The notes under the pieces: model-generated
Databases searched by the model: none
The model's input: only the letters and a program-made list of their open reading frames with translations
What the model was told of the DNA's origin: nothing
Origin: Auricularia sp. M13
Taxonomy: Eukaryota; Basidiomycota; Agaricomycetes; Auriculariales; Auriculariaceae
Assembly (NCBI GenBank): GCA_037042915.1
Contig: CM073200.1
Location: 2,910,832 to 2,974,831 of the forward strand
Direction of reading: 5' to 3'
Length of the DNA: 64,000 nucleotides
Shown: positions 761-55,106 of the stretch, in pieces
How positions within the stretch are numbered: position 1 is the first letter of the stretch
Layout of the letters: the number at the start of each line of letters is the position of its first letter
Program-made: the position numbers and the translations under genes

Positions 761-1267
761 CAATACGCAATACGGCGCACAAGAACGTATGGCGTGGCGC
801 ACGATTGAGCAGACGCGTTAAGGTCGTCTACAACACCGCGTACGAAGTCATAGATTCTGGACTGGACCTGTTCTGCCAGGATCATCCTGGTGGCGGGTGC
901 GGAGAAGAACAGATTTAGAAGCAAGTCAAAGCACGACAAACAAACAAAAAATTGGGCAGGACCCGCACCTCAGTCGAATCCTGTTACTGACGAATGGAAT
1001 TCACAATTCTGCACTGCTGGCAAGAGGAGGAACGAAACGAGCAATGTGTGACTAAACCGTGCGCCTGAAGCCCAAGTCCTACAGATTTCCAGACATACGC
1101 GCTCGATGGTAACATGTATCCACACAAGGTAACAGGACATGGTGTTGTATTGAGTACTAGCGTTGCGACAGACGAGAATGAGTACATGATACATGGGAGA
1201 GCGACATGCGACGTTGACTAGAAAGCAAGACGATGACTGAACAATGTGCTATGTTCTGGCAGACAAA
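761..1267. other. intergenic, no gene seen
   Basis: About 0.5 kb between the F-box start and the POLD4 stop. Only short overlapping frames without motifs occur. It should hold the F-box promoter and the POLD4 3' UTR. Confidence 0.5.
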
Positions 1268-5720: not shown

Positions 5721-7316
5721 ATGTCAATCCCAAAGACAATGCGAGCAGCTCGTGTTGTGCGTCAAGTTTCAGACCTTTTGGGCAGCGCTTGACGGCTTGA
5801 AGCTCGAGCCAGGCACCCCTTACAAAATCCAGGAGATCCCTGTTCCACAGATTGCTGAGCCGCACCAACTTCTCCTGAAAACTGGCGCCGCGGGTTTCTG
5901 CCACACAGGTATAGTATTGGCGCTCAGGAAAGCAAGGTACCCTTGCCTTGAGCGCTAACCTTCATATAGACACTATGGTCCGAAGGGGCGAAGGTCATTA
6001 CAACGTCCACCCAATCACAGGTCAGTCTGGAAGCCATTATTGTTCAGCAATACTCCCTTAATATTCCTCTTCTCCAGGCTCGCATGAACCTGCCGGCACG
6101 ATTGTTGCGCTCGGAGAAGCCGCCGTCCAGCAGGGATGGGCAGTCGGCCAACGAGTCGTCGCCATGACCAACATCGGATATTGTGGTTCGTCCTCTCCTA
6201 ATGCCGTCAATTTTCTCTCATTTTCCGACAGAAAAGTGCCCCGATTGCATGAGTGGACGCGACAATCACTGCCCTGTAATGAAGTGGGTTGGTCTCTCCT
6301 GCGATGGCGCCTTTGCGGACTATATTCTCGTCGGTGCGTCTGGCTGTGACATTTTCTGACCCTGCCATCTCCGGATCCCTCATTGATAAGTCCCATAGAC
6401 TGTCGAGCATCCGCTCACGTACCTGATGACATGCCATTCTCGTATGCAGCACCACTTGCATGCGCGGGAGCAACCATCCACTCGGCCATCCTCACGGCAA
6501 ACCTCCCCGCCGGCAGCGTGCTCGGAATCGTCGGTCTTGGCGGGCTGGGGCACATCGGCGTACAATTGGGGACGCTCATGGGTTACAAAGTCGTCGGCGT
6601 CGACGCGCGGGAGGCGCCTCTCGAACTCGCGAAGAGCCTCAAGTTCCCGCCCACTCTGCTCATAAACTCCAAAGAGAGCGCCAACGCCGTGCAGCGTATC
6701 AAAGACCTAGTGCCAAGAAAAGAGTTCCCTGGTAAATGCGCGTGTCATTGCGGTCCCCCCCAGTGCTGAGGAATTTCGTAGGCTGTGATGCGGTGATCGT
6801 GGCTACAGACGCCGTGCCCGCCTTCGAATTCGGCATCAAGATACTGGCCAAACATGGCACACTGGTCATGGTGCGTGGAGCACGTCGTTCCGTCCGCCGC
6901 TGGCGCTGACCCTGTGCGCGCGTAGGTTGGCCAGCCCGGCACGCCGGTGCCCATTACGTGAGGACACGCAATGCCCGTGGCCGTCGCACTCGGAGCTCAT
7001 CATTGCCACAGCTATGCAGACATTATTTTCAGAGATATTACGGTGCGTGCGTGCTGAACGGCGTACAGTGTACTTGACGACGCGTTTTCAGGTCAAGGGC
7101 AGCGTGCTCTCCACGCAGGAAAACTTCAGAAAGCTTGTGCGCCTGGTCACGCAACAGCGCATTGACATCCATGTCCGATTTTGTACTGACGTTCCTGCCA
7201 TGCGAGACTGACCTTTGTCGCAGACCAAGACATACAAACTGGACGACATCATGCAGATGGTGCATGATCAGGAGGACGTAGGCATGAAGGGCAAGTTTGT
7301 GATTGCATTCGAGTGA
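5721..7316 (+). CDS. zinc-dependent alcohol dehydrogenase
   Basis: Eleven exons (5721-5765, 5809-5908, 5970-6020, 6078-6185, 6232-6333, 6399-6731, 6782-6870, 6926-6957, 7012-7042, 7092-7172, 7224-7316) give 354 residues, the usual size of medium-chain ADH. Seen in order: catalytic zinc ligands in GFCHTDT and GSHEPAGT, the structural zinc lobe CEKCPDCMSGRDNHC, a proton-relay and cofactor region with APLACAGATIH, the Rossmann glycine motif GLGGLGHIGVQ, and VDAREAPLELAK. The family oxidises or reduces alcohols and aldehydes with NAD(P). All splice phases agree. It is transcribed away from the aromatic monooxygenase. Its 3' half (from exon 6 on) is nearly identical to an inverted copy at 53.87-55.11 kb. 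Confidence 0.93.
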
Positions 7317-7781
7317 GGTGTGTCAATCAACGAAACGATTATCTTTCGAGGACAAGTCTCCAAGGGAGCTACACTTTCCGAGACAACTCGTTTTGTGACG
7401 TCTCAGTTGAATTCGGTTGAAATGCGCGGTCTCTGCAGGGTTATGATGCATCTGGAACTGATGGTGTGGGGCAATGCATGGCTGTGAGACAGTAACAACG
7501 ACCGTAGGAGTGAGAGAGCGCTGATTTGAGAGGGAGAGAGAAAGAGTCGGAACTGGGCGGCAGTGCATATCATACGCAGTGACGGCCGGCCCTGTGTACT
7601 GCATCTGGTGGATGCCATGTCTGTCCACAGCGCGAGCTGGACCAACATATCGACGCCCGAGTCAGGACCCGCCTCTTCGCGCTCCTGGGTCATGCTCCCG
7701 CACGCTGCTGCACGCGACTCGGACGGGCCCCCGACGCCGGGCCCGTCGTCGCAGCCGGGGCCGTCGCGCCAGGCGATGTAG
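6532..7781 (+). repeat. inverted segmental duplication, copy 1
   Basis: This stretch, from inside ADH exon 6 through the 3' UTR and into a fragment of RhoGEF exon 1, matches the reverse complement of 53867-55106 nearly base for base. Differences noticed: a few substitutions, nine bases missing from copy 2 in the glycine motif, and a C-run of five here against four there. Homology ends exactly at the left terminus of the candidate transposon. Confidence 0.9.
7563..7781 (+). pseudogene. truncated copy of RhoGEF 5' coding region
   Basis: An ATG-led frame here reads through SDGPPTPGPSSQPGPSRQ and stops at a TAG at 7779-7781 beside the inverted terminus. At 53.87-54.08 kb the same DNA leads directly into the first exon of the RhoGEF gene, in the frame read here, so this is a fragment of that gene's N-terminus. 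The five-C run at 7728-7732 keeps the frame; the RhoGEF locus has four. Confidence 0.65.
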
Positions 7782-7803
7782 CCTAAGGCATCACTTTCTG
7801 GGG
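7782..7803 (+). repeat. left terminal inverted repeat (candidate)
   Basis: 22 bp, CCTAAGG plus CACTTTCTGGGG separated by three bases; pairs with 21668-21689. Followed to about 7917 by five or more GGCCCC/GGGTACCC blocks, and at 8001-8013 by a run of 13 C. Confidence 0.6.
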
Positions 7804-8082
7804 AGAGGCCCCTCACTACTCGGTGGCCCCTTCAAGCTGGGGCCCACATATGAGGGTACCCGATATTGAGGGCCCCAAGTACAAGGTGTACCCAATACTT
7901 GGGGGGCCCCACATTCGCGCACCTCACTGTCGTGAAGCCCCATCTTGAGCCCGCCGGACGCGGAACCAGAGCCCTTGTACTTACATGCCGGAACCAAAGA
8001 CCCCCCCCCCCCCGCCGCGCAAAGTCTACTGAAAAAAGTACCTATCGTAAATACATTTTCTGGTAGGATCGGAAAACTAAGT

Positions 8083-11000
8083 CTAAGAGCCCGATTTTCG
8101 TTCGGCAGAGAGACGGCACTCCCGGTTCCAAATTGCAAAGTAGGACTGCGTAAACAAGATTGCGTGGCGCTGAGTCATATAGCTGAGCGGGCGACGGATT
8201 CTGAGGAGACCTCGATTACCACACTCTGCGGCGCTGCAGTTCACCGGGCGAGTTCGGGGTCGTTCCTGTAGCTGCTGATCTTGCAACACTTCGAACAACG
8301 AGTATGGCCCTTGCCGTGAAATCCGTCGATAACAAATCGGGTGTTCTTGAAGAACTTCGGCTCGCGGAGCATGCAGTAATGAGCCAATGCGCACGCGAAA
8401 TCGTAGACAACGGTCTTCGGTGGAGTAGCCCATCGAGTAAAGAGCGCCGAGAACACGTCGTTGCGCCCTTCGCCGGATGGAATGCAGTGGAACCCGAGGC
8501 ATACGAGGTGCGGACACCACGCGGCCATGATGCCGCCAGTCTGGCCCTCGATGCCGTACGCTTCGAAATACTTGGAGCACCCTATACCGCCCGCGCCAGT
8601 GTCCGTGATAACAGACCTGTCGACCTTCTTGTCGCCAGGTAGATGAGGATACTCTGGGCGAAGGCGAACCTGCGGACGGCCATAGAAGCAGCCTGTCTAC
8701 GACGAATGAGTGTCATTCTCGTGACCGAGAGCACGAACGTACCTCCTCCCAACAATCTTCCCCCTCGACAGGTACGGCCGATTCGAAATCATGATCGCTG
8801 AGGCTGGCAGATACACGCATTGCCCGTCCGCGAACAAATTGAACAAGGCCACGAAGAGACGCGGAATACGAGCCCGATTCCCGCCACTCCTGCTGGGCGA
8901 CGGCACCGAGCGCGGGCACAGCGCGACAAAGAACATCGGCGGCGATGGCCTCATTCTTCTCGAGACTCAGCAAGGCAACCCACGTCGGCGCGGGGGCAAA
9001 CAGTAACACAGATTCGTACGCAAGGACCTGCGCCCCGTGTTAGACGCAGACCGTAGGAGCAAAATACGACATACGACATACCTGATTCAACAACTCGAGA
9101 TACGGCTTGCGACGGTCCTCGTCTGGTTGTAATTCGGCGTTACGAAAACCTCGAACAGCGCACCCAACGACCAGTGGACGAGGCTCAACTCCTTCGCGAT
9201 AGCAGGCAGACTCGCGCGCATCGCGCGATCCGCCAAATCGCGTTTCGAGACCCGCACATCAGTTGCACGGGCAGCGCCAACACCGTCCGCATCCGCATCG
9301 GGGACAGCCCGCCCACTGTCGTCGTCGTCGGGATCGTATGCTATCCCGTCCATGGCCGAGGAGTTGGTCTTGGTCAGGCCCTGGCGCCAGCGTACCGCCC
9401 TCTGGCCGCGCTGGCGAGCGAGACCCCACACAGCTGATACAGACTCGATTGGCGGTCTAACAGTATGACGAACAGGTGCTCCGGGAGAATGGTCGTCGGC
9501 GGCGTCATCGTCACTGTGCAATGTTTCTTGTTGAAGCCTGCAGTGACACCATCGAAGATGACCGTCGCGGGATCGGGACCACACGTTGTACAGAGGAAGC
9601 TGTCCCCTAGTTGCTGGATGCGGCGGAAAGAGAACCACGCCTTACGGAAAGAGTCGTCAGAAACGAATGCCACCGGGCTCTGCTGCTCGATGTAGGAACG
9701 CGCGATGACAGTGGCGTGCGCATGGAACGGAAACTCGTGAGCCGTGAACGACGATGTGAAGCCGTTCAGCAGTTCGTGAGTATAGATGCTGTGGTTGTTG
9801 AAGTTGAACAAGCCCAGCTCCTGCAAGTCGGGACCAGCAAAGACACGAGTGCGCGGACAAGACGAACAGTCCTGAACCTCTATGCGAGTCTTCCAGGCAC
9901 GTTGAGATCCATATACCGTGCACGGCATGGTGCGCACAGACGCACTCCTCGGACCAACAGATCCACAGCAACATCGCGCCTCGCCCGTGATGACGAGGAT
10001 ATCCGGTATAGGAGACACCAGAGCAAAGGTCGGCGCGGTGTCGCTCGGTAGTCGACACCAAGCAGGGGGACCGACAGGCAAGCCCGAGATGCTGCGTTCC
10101 TCGAGCTTCTCTTCGCCACTGCGCGCATTGACTGCGCTCGTCGTCAACACTTTGATGCCCAGACAAAGATAAGACGTACTTTTCTGACGCTCAGCCTGGA
10201 TCGACTGCTCGACAACCTGCTCCTCCGTGAGCGGTGCTTCGCCCACTCCAGCCGGTGTTCCTGGGATTTCATCTGCGGCGTGGGCCTGCTCTCCAGCTCG
10301 AACCCAACGGCGAATCCTGCCAATATGTTGGCAATTGGTGGACCGGTCGCGGCTGCACGCCCAAGCACCTGAATCGCAAGATGGACCGACGAGCGTAACG
10401 ATCGCCGGAGGTCCGTCCTTTGATATCATAGCGAAGGTTCTTTGAGGTTGACCGCTGTCCGACTCGGCACAGGTCTCGAGCGGCACGAAGTCACAATCAT
10501 CTGCGTCGAAACTATTTAGCATGAACACCTCTCGATCAACTCCAGGACGCTCACGTTGTTCGCACAGCACCGCGAATGGTGGAGGCTCCGAGTCCGTTAC
10601 GACACGGGTATGCACGCACGCACTTCCGGCTTTGAAGTCAGGGCAGGTGCAGTAGTGCTTGACGGTACCGTCCAGCTCGTTCGGCTTGTACGACGACCCA
10701 GCCATGTATGCCGGGATGGACGTGACATTTATTGAAGTCGTAAATTTGAGCCACCCAGAATTTCCGGTCCAGCTGCACGAAGACCACAGCTTGCTCGTCT
10801 ACCAAGTCACGATACATGGGATAGAGATCGTTGACGGGCACACGCGACGCGGACGGGACCACTCTGCGCACAGTGGGACGTGGCGATCCCTGAGGAGCAG
10901 CGTCGTGTAGCATTCCCATAGCACGACCTTTAACGGGAGACGTTGGCACCTCCTGCGCATGGTCCACTCCAGCTGCCGCCGTCAGCGGCACCTGAGATGG

Positions 11001-11135
11001 CCTGCTCGACCCTGCTGCAGGTGCCCGAGCCTTCTTACTGGCACTCTGTGCCAGCAAAATTTCATTCTCTTCGTCTTCTTCTATCACACGTCTTTTTTTT
11101 CCACGACCTCTGGGCGGCGGGGCGTCACGGAACAT
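8083..11135 (-). pseudogene. KDZ transposase-like gene, frameshifted
   Basis: Minus-strand pieces line up with the KDZ-associated cysteine-cluster proteins of Agaricomycetes. From the N-terminus (ATG at 11133-11135): a basic Ser-rich leader, a SWIM-like HYCTCPDFKAGSACVH knuckle, a second cysteine block (CCCGS, CSSCPRTR), the family stretch LGLFNFNNHSIYTHELLNG with FVSDDSFRKAWFSF, and the RNase-H-like core TGGIMAAWCPHLVCLGFHC, EGRNDVFSALF, VVYDFACALAHYCM and FVIDGFHGKGH. One clear intron lies near 9020-9080 and another near 8700-8750. Single-base losses at about 9143 and 8244-8248 break the core and the NCSAAECGN continuation, and another frame change lies near 10735, so it is probably inactive. 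A transposase role is inferred from the family. Confidence 0.75.
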
Positions 11136-11150
11136 GGGGCCCAGCACTAC

Positions 11151-11216
11151 ACGGTCACAATCGTGAAAGCGTGTTGGCCAAGCTCCAGTGCCCGACGGTC
11201 ACAATCGTGAAAGCGT
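11151..11216. repeat. 22-bp direct repeat upstream of transposase-like gene
   Basis: Two exact copies, 11151-11172 and 11195-11216 (core GGTCACAATCGTGAAAGCGT), begin 16 bp upstream of the ATG of the KDZ-like gene, period 44 bp. Confidence 0.8.
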
Positions 11217-12366
11217 CGGGCAGCGAGTGGAGGACGCGGGACAGAAGCGCGGCTAGAAAAAAAAATAGTCAATGAGCAAGTCCGGGCGCGACGACGCGCG
11301 CCCGGACGTCAACGAGTGGACTCACCTGGAGGCCACGGCGGTCTAGACGACCAGCCAGTCAGCGCGCACGAACAGAAATAAAAGGAAAAGGAAAAGAAAA
11401 CGCACTTGGTGGTCGTCGTCGTCGACGACGACGATGACGTGCGGCCCTGCGCTGGTGGAAGCGCGCGGTGTGGGAAGAAGGAAAGAGTGTGGCGGGACTT
11501 GGAACACCGCTCGCGCTCAAGTCCGTTTCAAAGTCCGCAGCAGGCAATAGCCGGCGGCGGGGTTCCAAATGCCCCCCACCTCTCTCTCTCCGCCGCCCGC
11601 CTTCACGACTGTGACCGGGCAGCAGCGAGTACCGCGCCGCGCATTTGCACGATTGTGCCTGCGTGGTAGGTGCTCGTGAGGGGGGAGGGGTCACACCTAA
11701 TGATTTTGTAAAGCGCGGCTCCGGCCCAGCGCCCATCTCTAGATACGTCGTCGCCCACAGTGTGCTCAGTGTTCGTGTGTTTTTTTTGCCCGGTGCATAT
11801 CTTGGTCAGTGTGTTTCTTGTCGTCAAATCCTGCCTGCCAGTGTTCTTCCCTCCTCTCCTCGCCGTCCACGCCAACTCTCTGTCGCCTTCCTCTCTCGCT
11901 CGTCGTCCTGCTCGTCGCACCCTCTCATCCGCCGCTCTCCACCGCTCTTCTTCGCTTTGCTAACTATTTGTATCCTGTGTTTTGTTGTCTGCGCTTGAAC
12001 GTTGGTTTTTTTCTCTGGGTCTTGAACTTCGTCTGGTGTGATAAAAACAATTACCCAAAGGTGAGGTCGCGTGAGAAAAATGAGAAAATCTTTTTTTAAG
12101 TTGTATCTGTTTCAGTGTCTATCTCCTGCTGGGCGTTACAGGCCGTGCTCGCCGCCTCAAGTAAGGGGCGTCGAGGACGGTCGTGGACGAATGCACGTCG
12201 CCGTGAACCCGAAAGGTGTGTACTTCGTCTTCTGCGTTGAAGTGAATTAAGGAGTCGAGCACAGCAGTAGTCTAAATTATTGGCCGCGCTCGTCGCCCAG
12301 AACCGTGGCGCCGTGGACGGCCGTGACAAAGACGAGGCCCGAACTACAATGAAGACCAGTACTGCT
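11217..12366. other. gene-poor spacer inside the element
   Basis: No recognisable gene. A perfect 22-bp palindrome of GTC/GAC repeats lies at 11413-11434, and 11820-11960 is strongly pyrimidine rich on the plus strand. Short frames on both strands carry no motifs. Confidence 0.4.
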
Positions 12367-13660
12367 CTACTTTCCAGGCAGGTACTTCGCCTCCATCATG
12401 TGGAGCCGCGCGCGAAGCATCACATTCGCCTCGTTCAACTTCTCGTTCCTCTCCTTGACGTCGGCGTTCTCCTTGCGCAGCGCGTGCACCTCCTCCTCGT
12501 AGGCCTTGTTTTTCTTCTCCACCTCCTTCGTGTATTGCTCACGGAATGGCCTCAGTTTCTCCATGATGGTCGTCCTCACCTCTCCAATCAGCTCCGGCAC
12601 GTCACTCTCAACCTGCTCGGAGTGCCACGTGCGCATAATACCAGAGCCTGTGCGTGGAAGGAAAACGCAAATTGCCCAGCCGTTGGCACGAGAGGCGAGC
12701 GTATCGGCCTTCTGCGCCACGGCCTGGAACATACGAGGGATGCGCTTCGCCTTCTCTGCTTGTGTCGGGTATTTGGCCTTGCGAAGGATGTTGCGCTCGA
12801 GATCTGGCCCATGTGAGTGAGGGAAGTACAAAAGTCAGGATTAATACTCACCGAGGGGCAGAATGCCGCGCGGTTGCCTTCCACCCGTTCTTCAGGCGAT
12901 ACGTTGGACGCTTGGGCTTGCTCACGGGCTTCTTGGACTTGTCGGTGTCGGCTTTGATCGTCGCAGTGTCGGGCTCCGTTGGTGTGCCGTTCGTCGCGTC
13001 GTGGGGAATGTCGACATCCATGTCTTGCGTGTCGCATCCGTGAGGTGCCTCGGTGGCCGTGGCGGGCGCGTTGTCCTGCTCGTCGGCGACCTTCAGGCCC
13101 TCCTCATCCTCGTCATCACTGTCGTGGGCAATGTCGGCGGGCAGAAAGTCTTGAAGAGTCTTGCCGTCGGGAGCTCAAGGCCGGCGGCTTCGAGTGCGGC
13201 CATGATTTGCTCGGCATCGACCTCACCGTCGTTCTCGTCGATGGCGAGTCCGACTTCGCGATCGATGCGCTGTGACTGGATGTCGGTATGGGCAGCGAGC
13301 ACCGTCTCCTCAATCGCAGCCGCCTTGGCAGCGAGGGCCGATGGCCCGTTCTTTCCGTTCTGCGACTTGTCAGCTCGCGTTTCATACGTCTTCAACGTTC
13401 GGGAACGTACTGCACATGCCGTGGCTGCGTGTCCCTTCATGGGCGCGCCGCAACTCTTGCACTTGGGTGATTTGCGGACAGACGGCGGCTTTGTGGGAGC
13501 GGTCGTGTCGGTCGTGCCAGTCGAGGTGCGCGTGCTGCGCGTGCCGTGCGCTTTGTGCGACGGCTGCGGCGGAGCATTCTCCTCTGAGACCCAGGTGAGC
13601 AGGCACGGCGTTCACAGACGAACGAGACGACGACTGACTGTTCTTCTTGCTGCGGGCCAT
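12367..13660 (-). CDS. unknown zinc-knuckle/coiled-coil protein (frame breaks)
   Basis: I do not recognise the family. From the ATG at 13658-13660 the frame starts MARSKKNSQSSSRSS, then carries a Pro/Thr-rich region and a small zinc-binding motif KCKSCGAPMKGHAATACA, an Asp/Glu-rich acidic part, a KPKRPTYRLKNGWKA basic stretch, and ends in a clear coiled coil (KEVEKKNKAYEEEVHALRKE onward) with stop at 12367. A segment just before the coiled coil (RIPRMFQAVAQKADTLASRA) faintly recalls a MADS-type DNA contact helix; this is weak. The reading frame changes near 13590 and 13170, each explained by loss of one base in a C run, and near 12845 at an intron. Either a decaying gene or sequence error. 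It sits inside the candidate transposon. Confidence 0.5.
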
Positions 13661-14440
13661 GCGGTTGCAGTCGAAGCCGAGGGAATTGGGAAGACTGTTG
13701 AGGGCGTTCCAGTGAGTATTCTGGGGCCCCTTATAATGCACTGGGCCATGTAGACGCCCGTCGGCGTAGTGTCTGGCCCCGTTCGGGAAGAAGTTGGCAT
13801 GAGTCTTCTGCGAGTGATTGGCGTCGAGGCTTCTCGAGTGATAGGCGTTAGAGATTCTGCTTGAAGACTTGGCGCTTCGAGAGCCTGGCCGTCATGCTCC
13901 TGTTCCAATGTGCAATGGGAACTTCAGCTGATCCACGCACCGGCGCAGGGTCTGCAGTTATGTGTTTGCATAAACTGGCCACCTGGAGGACATTGAGTTA
14001 ATGCCCATGTAAGCTAAGTCTGTTCCCAAGTGGTGATGGGCACTTACGTTGTGTTGTACAGCCCTCGTCTGACAGCCGTGTGAATTCTTCGCATGATGCG
14101 GGTGGGAAGCGCACAGACTGGAGGACTGCTCACCCAGGCGTTTGAGCTGGACTGTGCCCTCGCTATTCGTAGTCTGTTGTCGCGCCGATGCATTGTCCTC
14201 GTTGTGTCAGACTTGGTATGCATGTTCCGTATCGAGGTGTGGCAATTGTCGACTGACACCTTCGCAGTCATTCGATCATGGCTGTGTTCTTCGCTCGCGT
14301 GCTGAACCACTTTCACACATGCACATGGTCAGCATGTCTGACGATGCGCAATCCCAGATTATACGGATATCCTATTGCCTCGTAGGCAGGAACGCGTCTC
14401 GTCTGTCGAATCCTCTCAGCCCAGTCTCGTCAAGCCTCCA
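13661..14440. promoter_or_regulatory. divergent promoter region of two cargo genes
   Basis: Lies between the minus-strand coiled-coil gene and the plus-strand zinc-ribbon gene. A GGGGCCCC block at about 13731 resembles the blocks near the element ends. An alternative start of the plus gene, ATG at 14334 with a 38-bp intron, would shorten the region. Confidence 0.35.
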
Positions 14441-15933
14441 ATGTTCGCAAACCGCCGCACCGTGTCGTCTCCGCTGGCTCGCAAGGCCATGTCCTCGTCG
14501 CGTCAAACAGCACAGAAGCCCAAGACACGCTCTGTTTCAGCTCGCGGCAAGAACGCCGTTCCCAGTCCCTCGGAGCAGCTCGACATGGCCGACATCGCGC
14601 ATCAGCACTCCCTCCGTGACTGCATGACTGCGTATATCGAGCTCAGGCGTTCGACTCACCCCGAGGAGTTCGCGAAGGATCCTACTCATCAGCCGACATA
14701 CATCTGTGGCCCTTGGGAGCCCAAGCTCGTCTTGCGCAACGTTCGGCCGCCAATTTGGGAGCAACTCATGTGCCCGCAGTGCGGCAGCACTTCGCCCTCA
14801 CTATACACGTTCACTGGGCGTCAAGATCCGGGCTGCACTTGGGTGAAGGTGCGTATCGCTGTTGCGCCGTCGTCTCGTCCGAGATTGAGCATGTTGCAGT
14901 GCTCGCAGTGCAACCAGGTCGAGAATACTCCAGGCACCACGAAGTCCTCGGGCGACATTACGAAGACCCCGCGAAGCGTCGACTCTCATGGGCCATTTGC
15001 CGTATACGATAGCAACAAGTGTGAGTTGCGTGTATGGGTGACTAGGCTGGCCTCAGAGCGCGAGGCCGAAGTAGGTGCGCGCGCTTCCTTTCCATTGGTG
15101 CATAGTACTCATTATTTGACAGAGGCTGTCAAAGCCCGCGGGTCACGCACACCGTCAGGATCCAATCCAGCGACGATCCGCAGAGCAAGCGCTGCGCGCG
15201 CGCCGCGCACTCCATTGCGTCGTCCCCGCAAGCCTTCCTCGGCGGCTACCAGCGGCTTCTTCTCTGACGACGCGGACGATGACGGCGAAAGCGCGGACAA
15301 GGACGGCAACGACTCCGAGTTCACCAACACCGAGTCAGACGCATTCCGCCAGTTGATGGCGCGCTCTCGTGGCCCACTCGCGGACCCTCCTCGCAACAAC
15401 AAGCAGCGCCGCAGCAATGCAGCGGGAAAACGCGCGGTCGCGGCCTCGTCGAAGACTCCATCGCCGCCGCCACAGTCTGACACGCAGGCCCAGCAGCGCG
15501 TCGTTGCCAACGTTCCACTATCTCGCACCTTCGCGTTCAAAACTCGCGAGGTACAGGTCTCAGTTGAACTCATGGTGAGTTGCCGTTAAGCATCTCTGCA
15601 TCGGCTCGAGTTCAAACGTCGCAGAATCGCTCGTATCGCACGGTCAAGGTTGCTATCACCGACAACAAGTTGACGTGGGCCGTTCTCAAGTGCTCTCTCT
15701 CCAGTCTCTTCGTCGACGATTCCGTTGGTCTTGAAGTCTTTGACACCGTCAGCAACCAGTGGCGCCGGTTTGGCCTTGGCACCCAGCTTGGTGTGCACGT
15801 CTCGTCGAATACCATCGTTGCACGCGTCGTGCATGGTCGGGCTCTCTCACTGGAAGTCATCGAGATCCCCTCCACAACGGAGGATGAGAAACCTTCCAAG
15901 GTCGGGATAAACGCTATTACCCCAAGCCGCTGA
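14441..15933 (+). CDS. unknown zinc-ribbon protein
   Basis: The frame from ATG 14441 gives a basic Ser-rich leader, then a conserved-looking block with LMCPQCGSTSPSLYTFTG and, after a likely intron (14849-14899), KCSQCNQVEN: two C-x2-C pairs that would form a zinc ribbon. A long Ser/Arg/Asp-rich disordered middle follows. A second intron (15575-15624, GT-AG) joins the last exon 15625-15933, which encodes a compact beta-rich-looking domain (VKVAITDNKLTWAVLKCSL). I recognise no named family; no enzyme motif is seen. Its place inside the inverted termini suggests transposon cargo, perhaps DNA binding, but that is inference. An upstream ATG at 14334 is possible. Confidence 0.6.
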
Positions 15934-16382
15934 CTTTCATCACCAAGTCCAATAAGCGGGCAAAGCACCTTTAATTCCTTTTCCTATTCCCGAGTTTTTG
16001 TTTCTTGATAGAGTTCGCGTCCTCGAGTTATTCGCATAGTCTGAATTGGATTCTCGTATTCGCCCGTTTTGGCTTTGTCACATCAACCGGCTGCACTCAG
16101 GACAATCCCGGATAGTCTAATCGCGAGATCCGACGATCCAAGATATCGGATCGCCGGATCCTGCGATCTATCCTGCCGGATTATCGTTTGCGCAGCGTCG
16201 TCCGCAGCCGTCACCACTGGCCAATTTCATTGCTTATGCGTTGCACCGGACTCCACTTCACTCCTGCGTCACTTTCGCGGTGCTCTTGCTTCAGAGTCTC
16301 AAGGCGCTCTATCCCGTTGCATGAGATCTTTACGGGCTCTTCATATCTGGCTATTTGATTACGTCGAAGAACAGCCTGCACT

Positions 16383-16540
16383 ATGTCCGAACTGTACAAT
16401 TTCATCATGAAACGGTCTACATTGTGAGTATTCTTTGTGAGGTTTACGCTCAGAGCTAACCTGCACCCCGGTCGAAAGGTCTATTGCACTATGTCTGAAC
16501 TGTACAATTCCATCCTGAAACGTCAAATTTGTGAGTATGC
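16383..16540 (+). repeat. tandem duplication of a start-codon/splice-donor block
   Basis: Two similar blocks begin at 16383 and 16491 (period 108 bp). Each opens with ATG-TCNGAACTGTACAAT (MSELYN) and ends in a GTGAGTA donor about 40 bp later. It could be a duplicated 5' exon of the large downstream gene; not proven. Confidence 0.6.
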
Positions 16541-17156
16541 ACCTGATAGTTCTGCGCTCAAAGTACTCACGTCTTTGAATTCGACGACCTGATTATCCGT
16601 CTCAGGAGCAGCACCTCGCGCACCGCAATGCTCACTGACGACTCGCGCTATTCGATTCTGCAATCGCGCCAAGTTCCTGGTCGCACGCCGAGTAGCCGGT
16701 TCGTAACTGTGCAGGTGTCGGAGCACCGGCGTCAGATCGATCAACCGGCCAATCCCGCGTCCGTCTTGCATCTTGTCTTCCGACCGCGACCACCCAATTC
16801 TCTCCCCATTCCCATCCACCAGCTTCGTGGCGGAGGGACTCTGCGATTGCAGCTCCCTCTGGACGTCGTTGGATCTTGGTGGCGCCGCTATTGTACGATT
16901 GTACCTAGTGGTGGACCAGCTCTCCTGATCGCCCGCTTATACTCCCCTGATCGCCCGCCTATCGTCGACGGATCACGATGTCGGCCAAGGCGTGCGTGTC
17001 GTCAGGCTGATCGTGCAAGATCGCTGTGCTGATCATGCATTACCAGTGCCACGTCCCGCACCAACGCGACCCGCAAGCAGACTCGCGGCGCTCGCGCGCG
17101 TCTGCCATTGCAGCGCGAGCATCAAAGCCAGTGCGTAGTCGTCGATGCCATACCAT

Positions 17157-20100
17157 GATGCTTACAGTAGACAGTACTACATCGGACACTGTGGACGAAG
17201 CACCCCGCAGCCGGCCTCTAGTCGATTGGCACGAATTCCCCGACGCTTGGAAGAAAGTCTACGAAGACGCTCGTCTTGGACCGTGAGTCCGCGCTCTGTT
17301 GTTGGGTCCAGCGCGTGTCTGATTCTCTCCAGTGCAGAATACTGGGCCCATTCCCCCCCCTTCTCCTCCCCGACGGTTCAAGAACCGTAAGTCACTGGCT
17401 CCCAGCCAAGATATGAACTCACTGATGAGTCTAGATTCAACGCCTCTCAGCTTCTCTTCCGATCGGAGGACCCGGATGCCTCGCCGGCGCACGAACAGGT
17501 TGAGCTCTGGGTCGACTTCTTCATCGAGTGTCTGCACCTCGAACGGGACATGGCGGCAGAGCGGAAGCACATGCGCGCACCACATTCTGTGCGCGGTCGA
17601 TTCTACCTCGGTTATCATCCCTCTCCTCCACGACCGAAGTTGCCTGTGAACAATGAGTTCCGCGAATGGATCCTGCCAGTCCTCCGCGAACAATCGCCCA
17701 ACCCGCTCACGAGGATCGTGCCTGATCAGACGGACGACGAGGAGGCATGGTTCGCATCCATGAAACTCTGGCACAAGCAGGCCGTCCAGTGGCTCACGCT
17801 GCGCAAGAACGAGGACCTCTACGTTCGATTGTTCGATAAGCACAACCGCGACGAGTTCTTGCAGAACTTCCCACGTTCGCACAACATACTGGATGTCGTT
17901 ATGCCTCAGCGTCTCAGCAGAGAGCTCTATGCCGCTGACCCCACGGCCCCGAAACTCATGCGCCACCATCGCTGGTGGAAGTACGCGGACCTGGATCCAC
18001 CGCCAGGCTATGCGGCTGCGATACGTGTCGTGACGAATGTCAATTACATCCCCCTTTGCCGCCAGTCACTAAACCCGTCATGCGCATTGACGGCCGCTAC
18101 GGCGTGCAAGAAGAATCACGCTTCCCGACGTGGCACGCTATTGGGAAGTGGCACATGGCGTTCATCTCGACTGAATTGCATGGTCATGTAGAAGAACTCG
18201 AGCACAGCTCCATCCACAAGCCGATGCAGTTCTATATTCCCGACTTTGAGCGCGATTTCTGCTCATATGACTTCGACATCTCCTTCGCGCCGAAACCTGC
18301 CCTTAAAGCTGCAATGCAGAAAACCTGGGAGGAAGTCTTCAAGTCCATCGAGGACCTGGGACTCGGGCCGTCTCATCTGGTGCATCGGCCTTTCGAAGCA
18401 GAACAGCGCGGACGTGCTGCAATGCGGTTCTTTTTCAACCAGCAACTGTCCAAGCGGGACTTGCGCGAGACTCTGGCTTCGTGGCAGCGGGCCGTAGCGG
18501 AGATCAAGGGCTGGATCGACTACATGAAGTTCAACAATTGGCTTACCAAGTGGTCGCAGAGGTCCAGCAGCCGAATTTTCCCGTTGCCATGCGATCTGCG
18601 TATGAAACAAAATCGCCAGCCCGCCCGCGGTGTCTTCACAGACGACGAAGCTGTCGCTGCTCATTACGCCCAGTTCGGTGTTCCTGTATGGTTGGTGCGC
18701 CCGCGCGACGACTTGGGCAACGTCTGGCTTGCGGGAGGCGACGAGGACCGTATCGACATCACGCCGTTTGTCTGCGAAACTCGTGCATACAACGAGGAGC
18801 CAGGACATCGCCCGGCTTACCTATCTTCGACGTATGAGACGCGCTCGTTCCCCACCAACAATTTCGACTTCAACGAACAGGACAACGACTTCGGCGCACA
18901 GGACATTCCTTACCATGCGTCAGGTGCGAGTCTGGCTCGGTTTATCGTGTGTATGCTGATTTTTTGTAGGCGCAAGCGAATCGGCTGTCCGTCTGCCAGA
19001 TAATCCTCGGAAACGCGCAGGTGCGATCTTCAAATTCGGACCTGTCGCCGTGACTTACCCATAGTAGTTGATCATGGACACAAGGACCAGCCGGCGGCAA
19101 AGAAGTCCAAGCAGGCCAGCAGCAGGGCTGAGGCGCTCAAACTGCCGAGGTTCCCAATGCAGCGGCTGTTGAAGACTTATCCCTCATGGTGGCCGAAGCA
19201 TTGGAAGGTCGCCTTGGACGTCGTCTCGTCGATCAAACTCGATCCGACTCGCGTCCGGGAACTGAGGACGGCCGCACAATATCCAGTGCCAGGCGTCGAG
19301 CATCTAACCGGGTACTTTGCTTCGCCCGTCGCTGCCCATTTCGCTGGGGAGGGGTCCAAAGTCCCGATGAATCTCACAACCATTTTCGCTTCGTATGTCA
19401 TGCTGCGCCCACGTTTGCTCTATGCTTTGAGCAGCTGTGCTCCCGGCGACTTTCAGACTTTCTCCGCGGTTCACTGGAAGAGAATTCTTACCAACCACCT
19501 CGACGAGAAAGACCAGGTTCTCTTCGCCCGGCAACTCGGCCTATCTGCTGTGTCGCTTCCAGAGGTCATGGAAGTCGACAATTCCACGCTCGATGTCCTT
19601 CATGACAGCGTTCCCGCAAGCCTTGCACCGCGAGTAACGGGCGATGCAGCGAACTCGTCAGCCCAGTCCGCTGTGTCTACTTCAACGACTCCCAGCTCGC
19701 TTGCGTCGCGACTTCCTCCTACTGCGCCGCCTTCTACCGCGCCGACTTCGCGTAACGCGTCGCCATTCGAGGACGTCATGTCGGACGATGACATTGACAT
19801 GACTCCCGTTCACGGCAACGCTCAGGACGAGAGCCTCAAGCATCGCTGTTTCGTGCCAGAGACTGAGCCACTTGAACCGCCTCTCGCACGTGAAGAGCAG
19901 CGTTACCTCTATGAGCCCTCCGCGTGGCGTAATACGGCTCGCAACAAGCTGCGCGCCCTCAGCAAGTTCACCTGGTTCGTCGAGACCGATACCGAACCCA
20001 ACGAACCACTGCATTTTGTTGTTGCGGGCGAGAAGAAGCGCAAGGAGTACTTTGAGGATAACGAGGATGCAGATGTGTGGTGGGATTATGACCGCGGCTG

Positions 20101-21221
20101 GTGTATCGTCTTCCAGGAATCTCCAGCGGTGTCCGAAGGCAGCCTGCATGGTCAACGACTGACGCAGCCCTTGCGTTTGTTTGAGTGGGGTGGGCAACGA
20201 AGCGTGCAGAAGTATATCCATGGTACGCAGGATGGGAATACCATCCAGCTGCGGCTCTGGCACCGTCAGTCGTTCAACCACAGGTGAGTTATATCGATTG
20301 TCTGTTGGGTGTCAGCTCGCTAATTCTTCTCAGAGTGCAGGTTCCTATGGAGCCGCTCGGCCCTGTGGGGTGTTTGTCAAAACTGAGGTGGGATCTTGAC
20401 GAGGAGGATTATAACTTCTTCTTCCCCACCGCGCCGCGTCGGCTTCCAGTTCCTCGAGCAGATCAGCTCGTGCCGCCGCCGCCGCCGCCGCCGCCGCCAC
20501 CGCCGCCACCGCCGCCCTCCCAATCAAATCCTACGCAGGCGCAGGTGCCGGTCATGAACACCATCGTCACTGCGTCTTCCTCGACAGCGCAAGCGTCATC
20601 CGGGTCATCGAGTGTGTCATCTGCGCCTTTGGGTTCCGTACCGCGCTCGTCGTCATCTCTTGTGTCGACGGTGCGCGACGCGCGCTCAAGCCGCAGCGCA
20701 TCATGATGTTCAACGACAAGGAGCTCACGCCATATGATCCGCCGGACGATGTGGAAGCCAGTCGTGCATATTGCTGGCCGTCCGACAAGGAGCGTGCCCT
20801 CATTGCCTGGGACGTAACGGAGCTGTCGTTCCGGCTGGAGCTCGCCCTGCTTGACGACAAGCTGCGTTTACTTTATCGCGACGACGTCAAGCTCAACGCA
20901 CAGTCGAACATGGAGCGCCAGGAGATGATCTTCAAGATCTGGGGCTCAAATAGTTTTGTGCCAACGACGGCGAGCCCGCTGACCGCGCCGGAGTGGACTC
21001 TCCGCATCGACTCGTTGCTTGCATTCCATGCTTTGGTTTCCACCTGGCCCCGCGTCTCAATCACGTCGCCGCCCGCTGTTTTCCCCGGTGAAGCCGAGTT
21101 CCTCGCGTTTGAGAAGGAAGTCTGGCGGGCTTACGCGCAGACTCATGTGGACTACCTGTTTCGTCAGGCCATGGTGCCACTAGAGCATCCTGAACACTCC
21201 GAAGATGTCGAAATGTCTTGA
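17157..21221 (+). CDS. very large lineage-specific protein
   Basis: A series of exons in one direction codes for well over 1,100 residues. Clear junctions: 17283-17332, 17389-17434, 18924-18969, 19021-19064 and 20284-20335 (GT-AG, phase-consistent). Two frame changes near 18020-18061 and 20640-20699 can each be bridged by a plausible 41- or 60-bp intron, so the gene may be intact. The protein has no domain I can name: Trp/Tyr-rich blocks (WAHSPPF, HRWWKYADL, FGVPVWLVRP), Ser/Thr/Pro linkers, an uninterrupted run of about 15 prolines at 20472-20517, and a C-terminal AWDVTELSFRLELALLD segment. From memory it resembles multicopy unnamed Agaricomycete proteins; this needs a search. It ends 450 bp before the right inverted terminus. 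Confidence 0.6.
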
Positions 21222-21476
21222 TCTCGCTTGCACCTGTAATACTTTGATATGTTCTCGACCTGATTGTTTGAAGGTAGTTTGAACTCTTCCCGCTCAGTCA
21301 ATGGTACGTCTTTACACTTAAGTCTTGCCAGTAAGTCTTGAAAGGTGTGCAAACTCTTAACTTAAGTTCAAGTCATCCCATGGATGAGCTATGCCAAGTG
21401 GCAAAGCAAACGACTTAGCTCGGTGTGCTCAGTGGTACTCATGACTTGGCGGGTTCCGACGCTGTTCCGCAGTTTG

Positions 21477-21556
21477 CTTCCGGGATTCTTGCACTGAGGC
21501 TTCTTGCACCACCTCCGGGCTTCTCGCACTAGCTCCGGGCTTCTTGCACAGCTGTC
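21477..21556. repeat. short degenerate direct repeats near right end
   Basis: Four imperfect copies of a CTCCGGGCTTCTTGCAC-like unit follow one another about 120 bp inside the right inverted terminus; subterminal transposase sites are one possibility. Confidence 0.55.
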
Positions 21557-21667
21557 CGCTGTTGCCCGCTCAGCACCAATAGTGGTATCACATGGGCACC
21601 AGTAGAACTGGGCACCCTCAAGCATGGGGTACCTCTTTACAGGGGCCCCTCTTACTTGGGGGGGTTG

Positions 21668-21689
21668 CCCCAGAAAGTGCATCCTTAGG
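21668..21689 (-). repeat. right terminal inverted repeat (candidate)
   Basis: Reverse complement begins CCTAAGG and ends CACTTTCTGGGG, matching 7782-7803 at 19 of 22 positions. Adjacent 21590-21667 carries GGGGTACC and GGGGCCCC blocks. Confidence 0.6.
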
Positions 21690-21919
21690 ATATCCGCGTG
21701 GTCAAGCGCTTCGGGCACAGCGACTACGCCGCGCGCGATCACATCGCGCATTTCGAGCTGCCGATGCGTATGGAGGGAGATTCGGACGATGACGGCACGG
21801 ATAGCGAGGCGGACTGGCCGTCGGCGGCCTGGGACCGTGGTCGCTTGGCTCTCGAGGAGCGGGAGGAAGAAAACCAGCGTCAGACGAGGGTTATGGATTG
21901 GGTTTCTCCTAGTAAGTAG
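21690..21919 (+). pseudogene. orphan 3' exon at transposon border
   Basis: Directly outside the right terminus an open frame reads DIRVVKRFGHSDYAARDHIA, then an acidic stretch, and stops at 21919. It has an AG just before it and no upstream exon, so it looks like the 3' end of a gene whose remainder was lost or displaced by the element. Family not recognised. Confidence 0.45.
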
Positions 21920-22690
21920 TACCTCGGCTTCTCGGTCTGTTACATTCTGTACTTATACCCTGTCGGAAATTTACGAAATCGAAGGGCGGCCCGGCACGGT
22001 CTGTTCTGCAGATTAATATTGCGACTAGCGCGGCACTCCGCCGCGGTATAGGCTACGGCGCGCACTCTGCGCCATCTGCCTTACGCACGGTTTGGTGTAC
22101 ACGGACGGCATGTGGCTATAGCGAGCGTTAGCGCTATATATTTGTGGAGCAAATGCGATCCGTAATAGTAACCTTCGCAGCGAGCTGTGGGATTTCCAGG
22201 AAACTGAAAGCTTTACCCTGACGGTGAATAGGCTATATGCGACATAGGACCGTGGTGTCGTGCTAGTTGACCTTTCTGTCCTGTATGTGTTGAATGCGAA
22301 GTACTGATTTGATGGCTGTCACGGTGGACGCCGTGTGGAGCCACCGAAACGGTCAAACCGCCATTAAGGATGCCCAGTGTAGTCTACCAACTATTCCCTC
22401 ACCCTCAAGACGGTATTCATCCGACTTTTTCTGACGACCAGAAAGACAATTCGCGGGAGCTCACTCATTGTTTGTCCGAAGAACAACAGGATGATAACGT
22501 GGCTGTGCAGGGGCTCCGCGTCCGACGCTCCGCACCGCGACCATGCGCACGCCGAAAATACAATCCCTGACACTGGGACACCCGCAGACAACGCGGGCAT
22601 GGCCGTTCATTAGCGGCTGGTCGAGTGGTGGTTAAGGTGTTTCTGTGCCGTGTGGCGGGTGTGCCTTGCCGTGGTAGGACAATAGGGTCG
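21920..22690. other. gene-free stretch with clustered short hairpins
   Basis: No coding signal. Between 22028 and 22145 several small inverted repeats occur close together, for example GGCGC-n7-GCGCC and TATAGCG-n8-CGCTATA. Confidence 0.4.
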
Positions 22691-52100: not shown

Positions 52101-53755
52101 ATGTAGAGTCAGTCCAACTCACGATTGCCGCTTTGCTTCCTGTCTCGACACCGTTTGCTTGATCTCCGGTGAGACTAGCTCGTGCCAGGACGTGCTGATC
52201 TTGCTGCCGTTGAGCTGAATCGTCCGGAGAAGCGCAACTGTGCCGACGCGTCGCAGAAGTTGGATTGCTTCATGAAGCGAGTCGACGTCCGGACTTTGTT
52301 TGTCTGTCACTTTGAGAACACTGTCCAGGATCTCTGGATACTGGCTCAGCCGTTTCGAAGGAAGATGAAGCAGCGTATGCAGTGGAGGCGCGTCGGGTTC
52401 CAATTCCACGCATTCCTACAAACATCGGTGTCAGCAAAACACGTCCCGCAAGTCTCTAACAAAGTGCGCACGTCAATATAAGCCTTGAAGTTTTCGTTGG
52501 TCTTGAGTTCCTCCTGCAATCGCTTCTCTGCTCGCTCAATATGCGAGATGTAGACGGGGTACTCGTTGCGGAATTCTTCTGCGACTGCGACGAAGACGTC
52601 GCCTATCCACTGAATGAGCGGCGCAGACTCGCGTTTTCGAATGGCCAGCATTTCGAGCAGCGTCCGATTGCACCGCCGCAACTCGGAGATGTTCCCAAAG
52701 ACTTCCTCAAGGAACTCTTCATGATCGTCTGGGGCAATTATCCCCGGTTGTGAAAGGCCCTTGAGATAGACCTGCGCAGCACATCGCGTGTCAGCCAACG
52801 TAGACCCTCAGCCTGCACCACGACACGTACATCTTCTATGACCTCCAGGTTGCTCACGTATTGCTCCTCGTCGCGTATCATCTCGCGGATAAGGCTGCAG
52901 AGGCAAAGACATTAGAAACACGAGCGGGCGGCCACGAAGAGCGAAATGTCTCACTCTTGCCGCCGCCGCTCCGAGTCCGTCAAGCTCTTCAATTGGGATG
53001 GTGTGAGCCTCTCTACCCAGTCATCAATAACGGGCTGTGTGCGAAGCGTGAGCAATTGCAGCCTGGGAGGGATCGCAGCACAAACTTTTGGAGGTTCTGG
53101 TGGCAGATCGTCGTCAAGCACGATCTCCGTCTGCTCTTCTGCCTGTTGTTACACACAGAGTCAGCAGTAACCCATCTGAATTGTACGCGCACGCACTATT
53201 CTGTATGGACAAGATATGGAGTAGCAGCGGCGGCCTTCCTCACATGTAATCGAATAGCATTGCGTGAGCACGGTGTTGACGCCGGTGGGCAACGCCTCGC
53301 CGTAGAGGCCCGCAGAGTCTTCTGCATCCTCTGGAAAGCGAAAGAGGTCGTCGACATCGTCGCAGAGCGGCTGTCCCGAGTATTCGACGTCGTAGAACCA
53401 AAGCTGGCTCTGCAGACTGCGTGCCACTTGCAGCGCTAGCCTGCGATCGTTCGTGGTGATCCCGTACATTAGCATGAGCTCGCGTTGTATGAGCGACTGG
53501 ACCGTGGACTGCGCGCCGAGCTTCAGTAACGTGGTTCAGAGCAGCGAGTATCCCAGGACTCACCACCATGTCCTTGCCAGTGAACGCGCGTGGATACGGG
53601 ATGCAGCCCTTGACGTGCATGGCGCGGGGCACGTCGTCGCGCACCTTGACCGCGATATGCGACAAGAACTGCAGGTTGAGGAAGCGGGCCTCGTCGTCGT
53701 CGCCGTTCAGCCCGTCGTCGTCGTCGTCCTCCTGCTGCTGCCGCAGCGCGGCCAT
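49134..53755 (-). CDS. RhoGEF with DEP, two DH-like, PH and CNH domains (ROM1/ROM2 type)
   Basis: Eighteen exons: 49134-49701, 49755-49861, 49915-50076, 50125-50283, 50333-50427, 50469-50527, 50598-50716, 50767-51048, 51098-51159, 51213-51327, 51381-51956, 52002-52065, 52123-52415, 52472-52771, 52831-52894, 52955-53142, 53197-53520, 53564-53755; 1,242 residues from Met 53755. DEP first; then DH-like 1 (IREMIRDEEQYVSNLEVIED) and DH 2 (IIFELIQTESDYVHDLELIT, PIPRLLKYELILKNML), PH (LYTDNLQARREWQQKLEEA) and CNH (LIAIGCSDGVWIGL). The family activates Rho1 at the plasma membrane in cell-wall integrity signalling. The frame stays open upstream of 53755, into DNA shared with the 7.6-kb fragment; the true start may lie there but a 4-C run at 53916-53919 breaks it. 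One intron (50284-50332) is GC-AG. Confidence 0.93.
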
Positions 53756-53866
53756 CGTGCGCTCCCAGTCGGCGCCCACGCGCAGTCCGCTCGACGGCCG
53801 GCGCGGCGGCTGCGACTGCGACACTAAGCTTTGCCGGGGGCCGCGCGGCCGGCTGGCGGTCGAGCG

Positions 53867-55106
53867 CTGCGTCGCCTGGCGCGACGGCCCCGGCTGCGAC
53901 GACGGGCCCGGCGTCGGGGCCCGTCCGAGTCGCGTGCAGCAGCGTGCGGGAGCATGACCCAGGAGCGCGAAGAGGCGGGTCCTGACTCGGGCGTCGATAT
54001 GTTCGTCCAGCTCGCGCTGTGGACAGACATGGCATCCACCAGATGCAGTACACAGGGCCGGCCGTCACTGCGTATGATATGCACCGCCGCCCAGTTCCGA
54101 CTCTTTCTCTCTCCCTCTCAAATCAGCGCTCTCTCACTCCTACGGCCGTTGTTACTGTCTCACAGCCATGCATTGCCCCACACCATCTGTTCCAGATGCA
54201 TCATAACCCTGCAGAGACCGCGCATTTCAACCGAATTCAACTGAGACGTCACAAAACGGGTTGTCTCTGAAAGTGTAGCTCCCTTGGAGACTTGTCCTCG
54301 AAAGATAATCGTTTCGCACCTCACTCAAATGCAATCACAAACTTGCCCTTCATGCCTACGTCCTCCTGATCATGCACCATCTGCATGATGTCGTCCACTT
54401 TGTATGTCTTGGTCTGCGACAAAGGTCAGTCTCGCATGGCAGGAACGTCAGTACCAAATCGGACATGGATGTCAATGCGCTGTTGCGTGACCAGGCGCAC
54501 AAGCTTTCTGAAGTTTTCCTGCGTGGAGAGCACGCTCCCCTTGACCTGAAAACGCGTCGTCAAGTACACTGTACGCCGTTCAGCACACACGCACCGTAAT
54601 ATCTCTGAAAATAATGTCTGCATAGCTGTGCCAATGATGAGCTCCGAGTGCGACGGCCACGGGCATTGCGTGTCCTCACGTAATGGGCACCGGCGTGCCG
54701 GGCTGGCCAACCTACGCGCGCACAGGGTCAGCGCCAGCGGCGGACGGAATGTCGCGCTCCACGCACCATGACCAGTGTGCCATGTTTGGCCAGTATCTTG
54801 ATGCCGAATTCGAAGGCGGGCACGGCGTCTGTAGCCACGATCACCGCATCACAGCCTACGAAATTCCTCAGTACTGGGGGGACCGCAATGACACGCGCAT
54901 TTACCAGGGAACTCTTTTCTTGGCACTAGGTCTTTGATACGCTGCACGGCGTTGGTGCTGTCGTTGCAGTTTATGAGCAGAGCGGGCGGGAACTTGAGGC
55001 TCTTCGCGAGTTCGAGAGGCGCCTCCCGCGCGTCGACGCCGACGACTTTGTAACCCATGAGCGTCCCCAGCTGGTGCTTCAGCGCGCCGAGACCGACGAT
55101 TCCGAT
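53867..55106 (-). repeat. inverted segmental duplication, copy 2
   Basis: Reverse complement of 6532-7781. Contains the RhoGEF 5' region and the 3' half of an ADH gene in the same order and orientation relative to each other. The left side continues into RhoGEF exon 1; the right side stops at 55106 and runs into tandem repeats. Confidence 0.9.
54321..55106 (-). pseudogene. 5'-truncated ADH copy
   Basis: Matches exons 6-11 of the complete ADH gene, including introns and stop (TGA at 54321-54323), but exons 1-5 and the start of exon 6 are missing. The glycine motif has nine bases deleted (GLGALKHQLGT instead of GLGGLGHIGVQLGT). Both catalytic and structural zinc ligands are gone, so no active enzyme can result. 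The break lies at the edge of a tandem array. Confidence 0.9.

Follow-up and report, generated by a model that had tools for sequence, protein, structure and literature searches.

What kind of element is the segment of about 13.9 kb that lies between short inverted ends in this DNA, and what part do the three genes that accompany its transposase play? The window, that is, the whole stretch of 64,000 nucleotides of the Auricularia sp. M13 genome that was analysed, contains one copy of it. Taken together, our results make it very probable that this copy belongs to a lineage of large KDZ (CxC4) transposons with a conserved four-protein module. Comparison of copies places the DNA transposon at positions 7775-21696 of the window. 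A sequence-only reading had set 22-bp inverted ends at 7782 and 21689; the pairing of these ends and their 19/22 identity stand, whereas the boundaries had to be moved, since the element extends 7 bp beyond these positions in both directions. The end regions are the following.

7775..7803, + strand: left terminus, GATGTAG-CCTAAGGCATCACTTTCTGGGG; inverted repetition with the right end does not extend to its outermost 7 bp
7804..8024, no strand: left subterminal region, rich in GGGCCC/GGTACC, with 4 blocks in the element's first 250 bp
21447..21667, no strand: right subterminal region with GGGCCC/GGTACC blocks, 2 of them in the element's last 250 bp
21668..21696, - strand: right terminus, CGGATAT-CCTAAGGATGCACTTTCTGGGG when read inward

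The termini are fixed and asymmetric (GATGTAG.. versus CGGATAT..), with the 22-bp inverted repeat inside them. When every 22-mer of 7201-8400 was compared with every 22-mer of 21101-22300, 18 or more matches occurred only in the 19/22 inverted register and its one-step shifts. The blocks inward of both ends, to which attention had been drawn earlier, are indeed enriched over a background, per 250 bp, of 0.075 inside the element and 0.12 elsewhere in the window; they are absent from the ends of a distant family member on C6 (counts 0 and 1). In the 52-Mb genome the end pattern CCTAAGGNNNCACTTTCTGGGG, with at most two mismatches allowed, has 18 matches versus none for the reversed control, and 16 of the 18 form eight inverted pairs, with a ninth pair completed on C2. 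A chance repeat was rejected because of these counts and the pairing found with a wider pattern. The expectation that such pairs would enclose the same four genes is mainly borne out: five of the nine pairs do so, and the other four are elements without a transposase. Single scattered ends, named beforehand as counter-evidence, amount to one left end on C6 and, with the wider pattern, 8 of 34 matches that have no partner among the matches listed. The four genes are also found away from these exact ends, in two further families, where the ends are diverged but related.

All four genes announced for the interior are present, and they contain introns:

8083..11135, - strand: KDZ transposase gene, five exons at about 11135-10555, 10500-10180, 10131-9082, 9027-8743 and 8696-8083
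12370..13660, - strand: gene 2, exons at about 13660-12852 and 12803-12370, with a zinc knuckle C-x2-C...G-H-x4-C recognised by eye
14441..15971, + strand: gene 3, four exons, about 460 amino acids, with a CxxC...CxxC zinc-ribbon-like motif recognised by eye
17155..21222, + strand: gene 4, about 1,270 amino acids in a six-exon model

The transposase combines a SWIM-like finger (below the Pfam cut-off), a CxC4 cluster and a KDZ catalytic domain, and on these profile matches it is a member of the KDZ superfamily, CxC4 type. The match to CxC4 (PF18717) is strong (E 3.8e-40, 137 bits versus a cut-off of 26.9), and the KDZ profile PF18758 (cut-off 26.6 bits) is matched by the copies C8b, C1a and C4 with 28.4, 28.3 and 26.8 bits, the window copy scoring slightly below the cut-off with 25.7 bits. 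Only positions 75-217 of the KDZ profile are matched, and therefore this is a divergent member; the same profile has at least 149 exon-wise matches in the genome, in which KDZ elements are therefore plentiful. The D of (V/I)YDF, the D of IDGFH and the E of SAAECGN, which may form the acidic catalytic triad, are conserved in the copies and in two other aligned families, and the D of VITD is replaced by Q in the C6 element. The KDZ names and the CxC clusters reportedly originate with Iyer et al. 2014 (PNAS). Together with the 8-bp target duplications described below, the two profile matches uphold the original designation as a transposon with a KDZ transposase. Starships and Cryptons, which use a tyrosine recombinase, and Helitrons were dropped because of the inverted ends, the 8-bp duplications and the KDZ domain.

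Among characterized elements, KDZ1, KDZ2 and KDZ3 of Cryptococcus neoformans, which are about 9-11 kb long and have been shown to move, resemble the present element in having a KDZ catalytic domain with a CxC cluster, inverted ends and 8-bp duplications (4-8 bp for KDZ2/3), but their cluster is CxC1 rather than CxC4, their inverted repeats are 139-241 bp long rather than short and imperfect, and no three-gene module such as the present one is mentioned in the available text of that account (PMC12810828). The fungal Zisupton/Dileera elements are alike by description in their KDZ transposase and 8-bp target duplications, and some of them carry a TET/JBP gene, an accessory gene of another kind than those found here (PMC12730594, as far as its available text goes). 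That KDZ elements with accessory genes are already known, as had been remarked, is correct. In the same source the Kyakuja elements of Agaricomycetes, also of the KDZ superfamily and in some cases with an accessory gene, are described as lacking inverted repeats and as having CA..TG termini and duplications of 7 bp, in contrast to the 8-bp duplications and inverted ends of the present element; with GATGTAG../CGGATAT.. ends and a 19/22 inverted repeat it is not a Kyakuja.

The proteins of genes 2 to 4 agree with what had been said of them, namely a zinc-knuckle/coiled-coil protein, a zinc-ribbon-like protein and one of more than 1,100 residues. Gene 2 has a conserved C-terminal region and probably contains a coiled coil, the matches for which are weak and below the Pfam cut-offs. 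Gene 3 has a conserved C-terminal domain; in gene 4 the regions at residues of about 60-560 and 575-985 and the C terminus are conserved. All Pfam matches of the three genes were below curated cut-offs, and no Pfam match to a TET/JBP dioxygenase was obtained in the 10 exon-sized frames and three gene models scanned. Profiles of both conserved regions of gene 4 retrieved nothing from the PDB with an E value of 1 or below, nor did the gene-3 protein with one of 0.1 or below, and the viral contigs scanned with region 1 of gene 4 contained no relative. Structure predictions of the two gene-4 regions were poor (mean pLDDT 50.3 with 11 sequences and 43.1 with 12).

Near-identical copies at independent sites, together with uninterrupted homologues of the targets, indirectly indicate that the element has moved. 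Both ends were located in 15 elements, and in 13 of these the 8-bp target duplications are identical. The other two are the window copy and a sister copy on C8 (C8:2978705-2992624), which is inverted relative to the window copy and lies 46 kb away; here the duplications match but are swapped.

7767..7774, no strand: 8-bp target duplication CGCCAGGC, its partner at the right end of the sister copy (element orientation)
21697..21704, no strand: 8-bp target duplication CGTGGTCA, its partner at the left end of the sister copy (element orientation)
53427..55069, - strand: empty site, an uninterrupted homologue of one of the targets, in which the counterpart of the left flank of the window copy continues directly into that of the right flank of the sister

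The empty site agrees with the joined target at 1414 of 1448 bases (98%) and contains CGCCAGGC only once. The second joined target has an uninterrupted homologue at C8:3001407 (1054 of 1217 bases, 87%), in which the target octamer is not identical. At both sites the joined sequence is open across the junction in several reading frames; therefore the frames alone prove little, and it is the uninterrupted homologues that carry the argument. Truncated coding fragments do abut both ends, as had been reported, but the flanks rejoin at the ends of the sister copy and not at the opposite end of the window copy. The displacement of the window copy from its original flanks was not visible to the sequence-only reading.

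The swapped duplications arise because either recombination between the two copies or the assembler has inverted the DNA between them. We consider it probable that the inverted C8 copies recombined and turned round the intervening 46 kb, so that the window copy would now lie between halves of two target sites. That the swap is an assembly artefact without any genomic inversion is a realistic alternative of somewhat lower probability, since inverted copies of 13.9 kb with 99.86% identity are a classic source of falsely inverted segments. The three copies of subfamily A have 15, 15 and 12 private indels versus 10, 10 and 32 private substitutions, and 27 of the 42 indels are single-base; in the two copies where indels exceed substitutions, this excess points to flaws in the long-read consensus. 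The contigs, on the other hand, are chromosome-scale, the one point that speaks against the artefact. With its preserved empty sites and an apparent inversion, this region illustrates how such an element breaks genes and reshapes a chromosome.

The copies are 99.7-99.9% identical within subfamily A, 99.8% within subfamily B and 70% between the two. The window copy has frame breaks, also in the transposase, that are absent from some sister copies, and no copy with all four genes open was found among those compared. Were these breaks real mutations, the window copy would be a dead relic of a family that is now immobile. Frame breaks in the transposase, gene 2 and gene 4 of the A copies, and the first exon of gene 2, which in each of the three A copies is frame-shifted with respect to B, agree with such a fate; nevertheless we regard it as rather unlikely, considering that copies at independent sites diverge by just 0.14-0.31% in aligned bases, that the private indels are mostly the single-base events mentioned above, that C8b and C3 have a gene 3 frame open over its full length, and that dN/dS between A and B is low.

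That ratio is 0.10 for the transposase (750 codons, excluding the exon 9027-8743 and short stretches near frame breaks; the first segment includes one stop in C3), 0.26 for gene 2 (284 codons), 0.21 for gene 4 (1042 codons) and 0.16, 0.26 and 0.11 for three exons of gene 3 (0.11 for the last one), the remaining exon being saturated; synonymous sites are close to saturation in several segments. On these alignments, purifying selection between the two subfamilies is seen in each of the four genes. At 14 of 39 CxC4 loci all three partner genes are present in the same order and orientation, and outside subfamilies A and B the gene-4 matches of these complete loci have 33-49% identity. The table of loci was built from 42 of 57 gene-4, 17 of 44 gene-3, 32 of 53 gene-2 and all 39 CxC4 matches, the omitted rows being, as judged by eye, extra exon matches of places already represented; the gene-4 query was the first 1,025 residues. 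That the three partners are kept together in many related elements of this genome suggests working parts rather than chance passengers, and the label of cargo given to them before should be abandoned in favour of conserved partners of the transposase lineage. It is very unlikely that they were captured by chance and have no role in transposition, even if Pfam scans recognised no domain of known transposition function and the accessory genes of KDZ and other giant elements elsewhere are mostly of unknown function (PMC12477816, available text), for in 14 of the 39 loci the three genes have a common order and orientation, also in families in which gene 4 has 33-49% identity, and purifying selection acts on all of them.

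We propose the following model. The element is very probably a large cut-and-paste DNA transposon, in which the GC-rich subterminal blocks would serve as binding sites of the transposase; the latter would cut as supposed for other KDZ transposases. Genes 2 to 4 would contribute to the element's own working, and their products would most likely bind DNA or act as bridges, either in the transposition complex or in an escape from silencing. The short elements with the same ends and no transposase may have been moved in trans. A bolder proposal, which we put forward tentatively and hold unlikely in this full form, is that CxC4-KDZ elements are multi-protein machines, in which the transposase works only with its three partners, these sharing out among themselves the recognition of ends, the bridging and either target choice or an escape from silencing, and being kept in a fungal lineage while the giant protein diverged to about one third identity; such a division of labour would be similar to that of bacterial multi-subunit transposons. 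A conserved three-gene set, with no function recognisable from its sequence and under selection together with a transposase, offers a testable case of a eukaryotic multi-protein transposition or counter-silencing device.

Accessory genes are frequent on fungal KDZ elements, and the giant KDZ elements of Ectocarpus and Chlamydomonas, which exceed 10 kb and carry extra genes, have relatives without transposase that were presumably moved in trans, as proposed here; they occur in other hosts and no conserved three-gene set is stated for them (PMC12477816, available text). A fixed accessory module in KDZ elements was not found in the literature searched, as far as the available texts go (including PMC12730594, PMC12810828, PMC9297572 and PMC12477816). 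An account of the present gene set was likewise not found in the literature searched.

Beyond the 14 complete loci, 19 of the 39 CxC4 loci have one or two partner genes and 6 have none: either the module is not universal among CxC4 loci, or a single query per gene misses the more diverged partners. Gene 2 is the only partner at 13 of the 39 loci, gene 3 at two, where it lies at an unusual distance, and 8 gene-4 loci have no CxC4 neighbour at the expected place. All partner matches assigned to CxC4 loci are in the expected orientation.

The 22-bp inverted ends proposed in the sequence-only reading, at window positions 7782 and 21689, stand: they are identical at 19 of 22 positions, and this is the sole register of at least 18 matches between the two flanking stretches. 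Genome-wide (14 contigs, numbered with the prefix C; 52 Mb in total) the end pattern gave 18 matches versus 0 for a reversed control, and 16 of the 18 are accounted for by eight inverted pairs; one left end, on C6, is without partner. The pairs, and a ninth, are:

13.9-14.0 kb, three pairs: window copy, C1:7599659 and C8:2978712
14.1 kb, two pairs: C3 and C4
15.4 kb, one pair: C10
4.7-5.4 kb, two pairs
4.9 kb, the ninth pair: C2

A wider end pattern gave 34 matches versus 1 in the control; 22 of them form 11 pairs within the list, four are right ends of a distant family and eight are unpaired in the list. Comparison of copies extends both reported ends outward by seven fixed bases, GATGTAG or GGTGTAG on the left and CGGATAT (read inward) on the right, and the element therefore occupies window 7775-21696. 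These outer seven bases are not inverted repeats of one another.

Outside the fixed bases, identical 8-bp flanks are present in six of the eight pairs. Identical 8-bp duplications border 13 of the 15 elements with both ends located, which comprise the eight pairs, the C2 element, two elements from a sister family (C9:1418072-1432143 and C3:793821-807900) and four from the distant family (C6, C11 and two on C9, including one of 28.8 kb). In the distant family the left ends were located by searching for the 8 bp of the right flank. All four of these searches stopped at the same left sequence. The element belongs to the KDZ superfamily, for which published sources describe 8-bp duplications in mobile Cryptococcus elements of 9-11 kb (PMC12810828) and in Zisupton and Dileera, and 7-bp duplications without inverted repeats in Kyakuja (PMC12730594).

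The window copy is flanked by CGCCAGGC on the left and CGTGGTCA on the right, and the sister copy (C8:2978705-2992624), inverted and 46 kb off, carries them the other way round. The left flank of the window copy joined to the right flank of the sister copy exists uninterrupted at window 53427-55069 (98% over 1.45 kb), with a single copy of CGCCAGGC; joining the other two flanks yields an open frame of 133 codons across the join, and C8:3001407 carries an uninterrupted homologue of that joined sequence (87% over 1.2 kb). The original flank partners are thus identified, and relative to them the DNA separating the elements is inverted. Recombination between the inverted copies would account for this arrangement, and mis-assembly at the repeats would do so too; the sequence by itself is compatible with both. 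Window 6567-7782 and 53866-55069 form an inverted duplication (97% over 1.2 kb), the second copy being part of the uninterrupted target homologue.

In about 13.9 kb, 20 substitutions separate the window copy from the sister copy, and 42 separate it from the copy on C1. Among the private indels of these three A copies, 27 of 42 are single-base, and about half of the short ones adjoin single-letter runs; we think that many are consensus errors. The C1 copy (C1:7599652-7613648), otherwise 99.7% identical, has a 92-bp insertion in the first transposase exon. The two B copies (C3, C4) are 99.8% identical to each other, and A and B share 70%. Four genes are carried:

Transposase, minus strand, five exons: SWIM-like finger, CxC4 cysteine cluster (PF18717), KDZ domain
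Gene 2, minus strand: zinc knuckle (by eye), probable coiled coil
Gene 3, plus strand: CxxC...CxxC motif (by eye), conserved C-terminal domain
Gene 4, plus strand, about 1,270 residues: two conserved regions

The CxC4 cluster is matched at E 3.8e-40 and the SWIM-like finger at E 0.016, under the cut-off. The knuckle of gene 2 is retained in both other families read, and its coiled coil is proposed from weak matches. The sister family has both halves of the gene-3 motif, the distant family just the first; the gene-3 frame is open throughout in the sister copy and in C3. The conserved regions of gene 4 have no Pfam match above cut-off and none in PDB, and no TET/JBP match turned up among the frames and gene models scanned.

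A genome-wide profile search found 39 CxC4 loci, and a single catalytic-domain query gave 71 matches at 47 loci. Genes 2, 3 and 4 lie downstream of CxC4 at 14 of the 39; others have genes 2 and 4 (three), 2 and 3 (one), gene 2 alone (13), gene 3 alone (two) or no partner (six), absences being soft with one query per gene. No assigned match has an unexpected orientation. Of 31 loci with gene 2, 28 have it 2.7-3.9 kb from the CxC4 stretch and three have it 5.4-8.7 kb away; at both gene-3-only loci gene 3 is unusually close (0.65 kb). Between A and B each of the four genes evolves under purifying selection, with dN/dS of 0.10 for the transposase, 0.26 for gene 2, 0.21 for gene 4 and 0.16, 0.26 and 0.11 for three gene-3 exons, a fourth being saturated. 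That genes 2-4 are recently captured cargo is argued against by the fixed order and orientation and by selection across such divergence. Algae are known to host giant KDZ elements, and fungal KDZ elements are described as often having accessory genes (PMC12477816); this conserved three-gene module was not found in the literature searched, a scope outside which the founding KDZ paper lies.

Eight gene-4 relatives, most with long open frames, have no CxC4 transposase in the expected place (C9:3220-3223k, C1:8887k, C12:675-678k, C6:655-658k, C10:2873-2877k, C3:57-60k, C6:4218-4221k and C12:598-601k); a transposase fragment lies at C3:64104, near the relative at C3:57k. KDZ transposases are very numerous genome-wide, with at least 149 profile matches counted exon by exon.

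GGGCCC/GGTACC blocks number 3-8 in the first 250 bp and 2-3 in the last in the window-type and sister-type elements tested, and 0.04-0.12 per 250 bp between the ends; the C6 element of the distant family has 0 and 1. We infer that the blocks may be transposase binding sites in the window-type and sister-type families. Short elements (C10:3614057, C1:7909188, C2:2429691, and C10:295137 minus a 9.3-kb stretch) resemble the window element in their ends and in a segment close to where the transposase starts, and lack the transposase; they are probably moved in trans. The 9.3-kb stretch (element positions about 1222-10486 of C10:295137-310520) is probably a nested insertion, because it is missing from the short relative that C10 also carries and one of its frames appears to resemble a Plavaka/CACTA transposase. 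Outside the window element, host frames at window 2-817 and 51132-51959 have F-box-like and RhoGEF domains.
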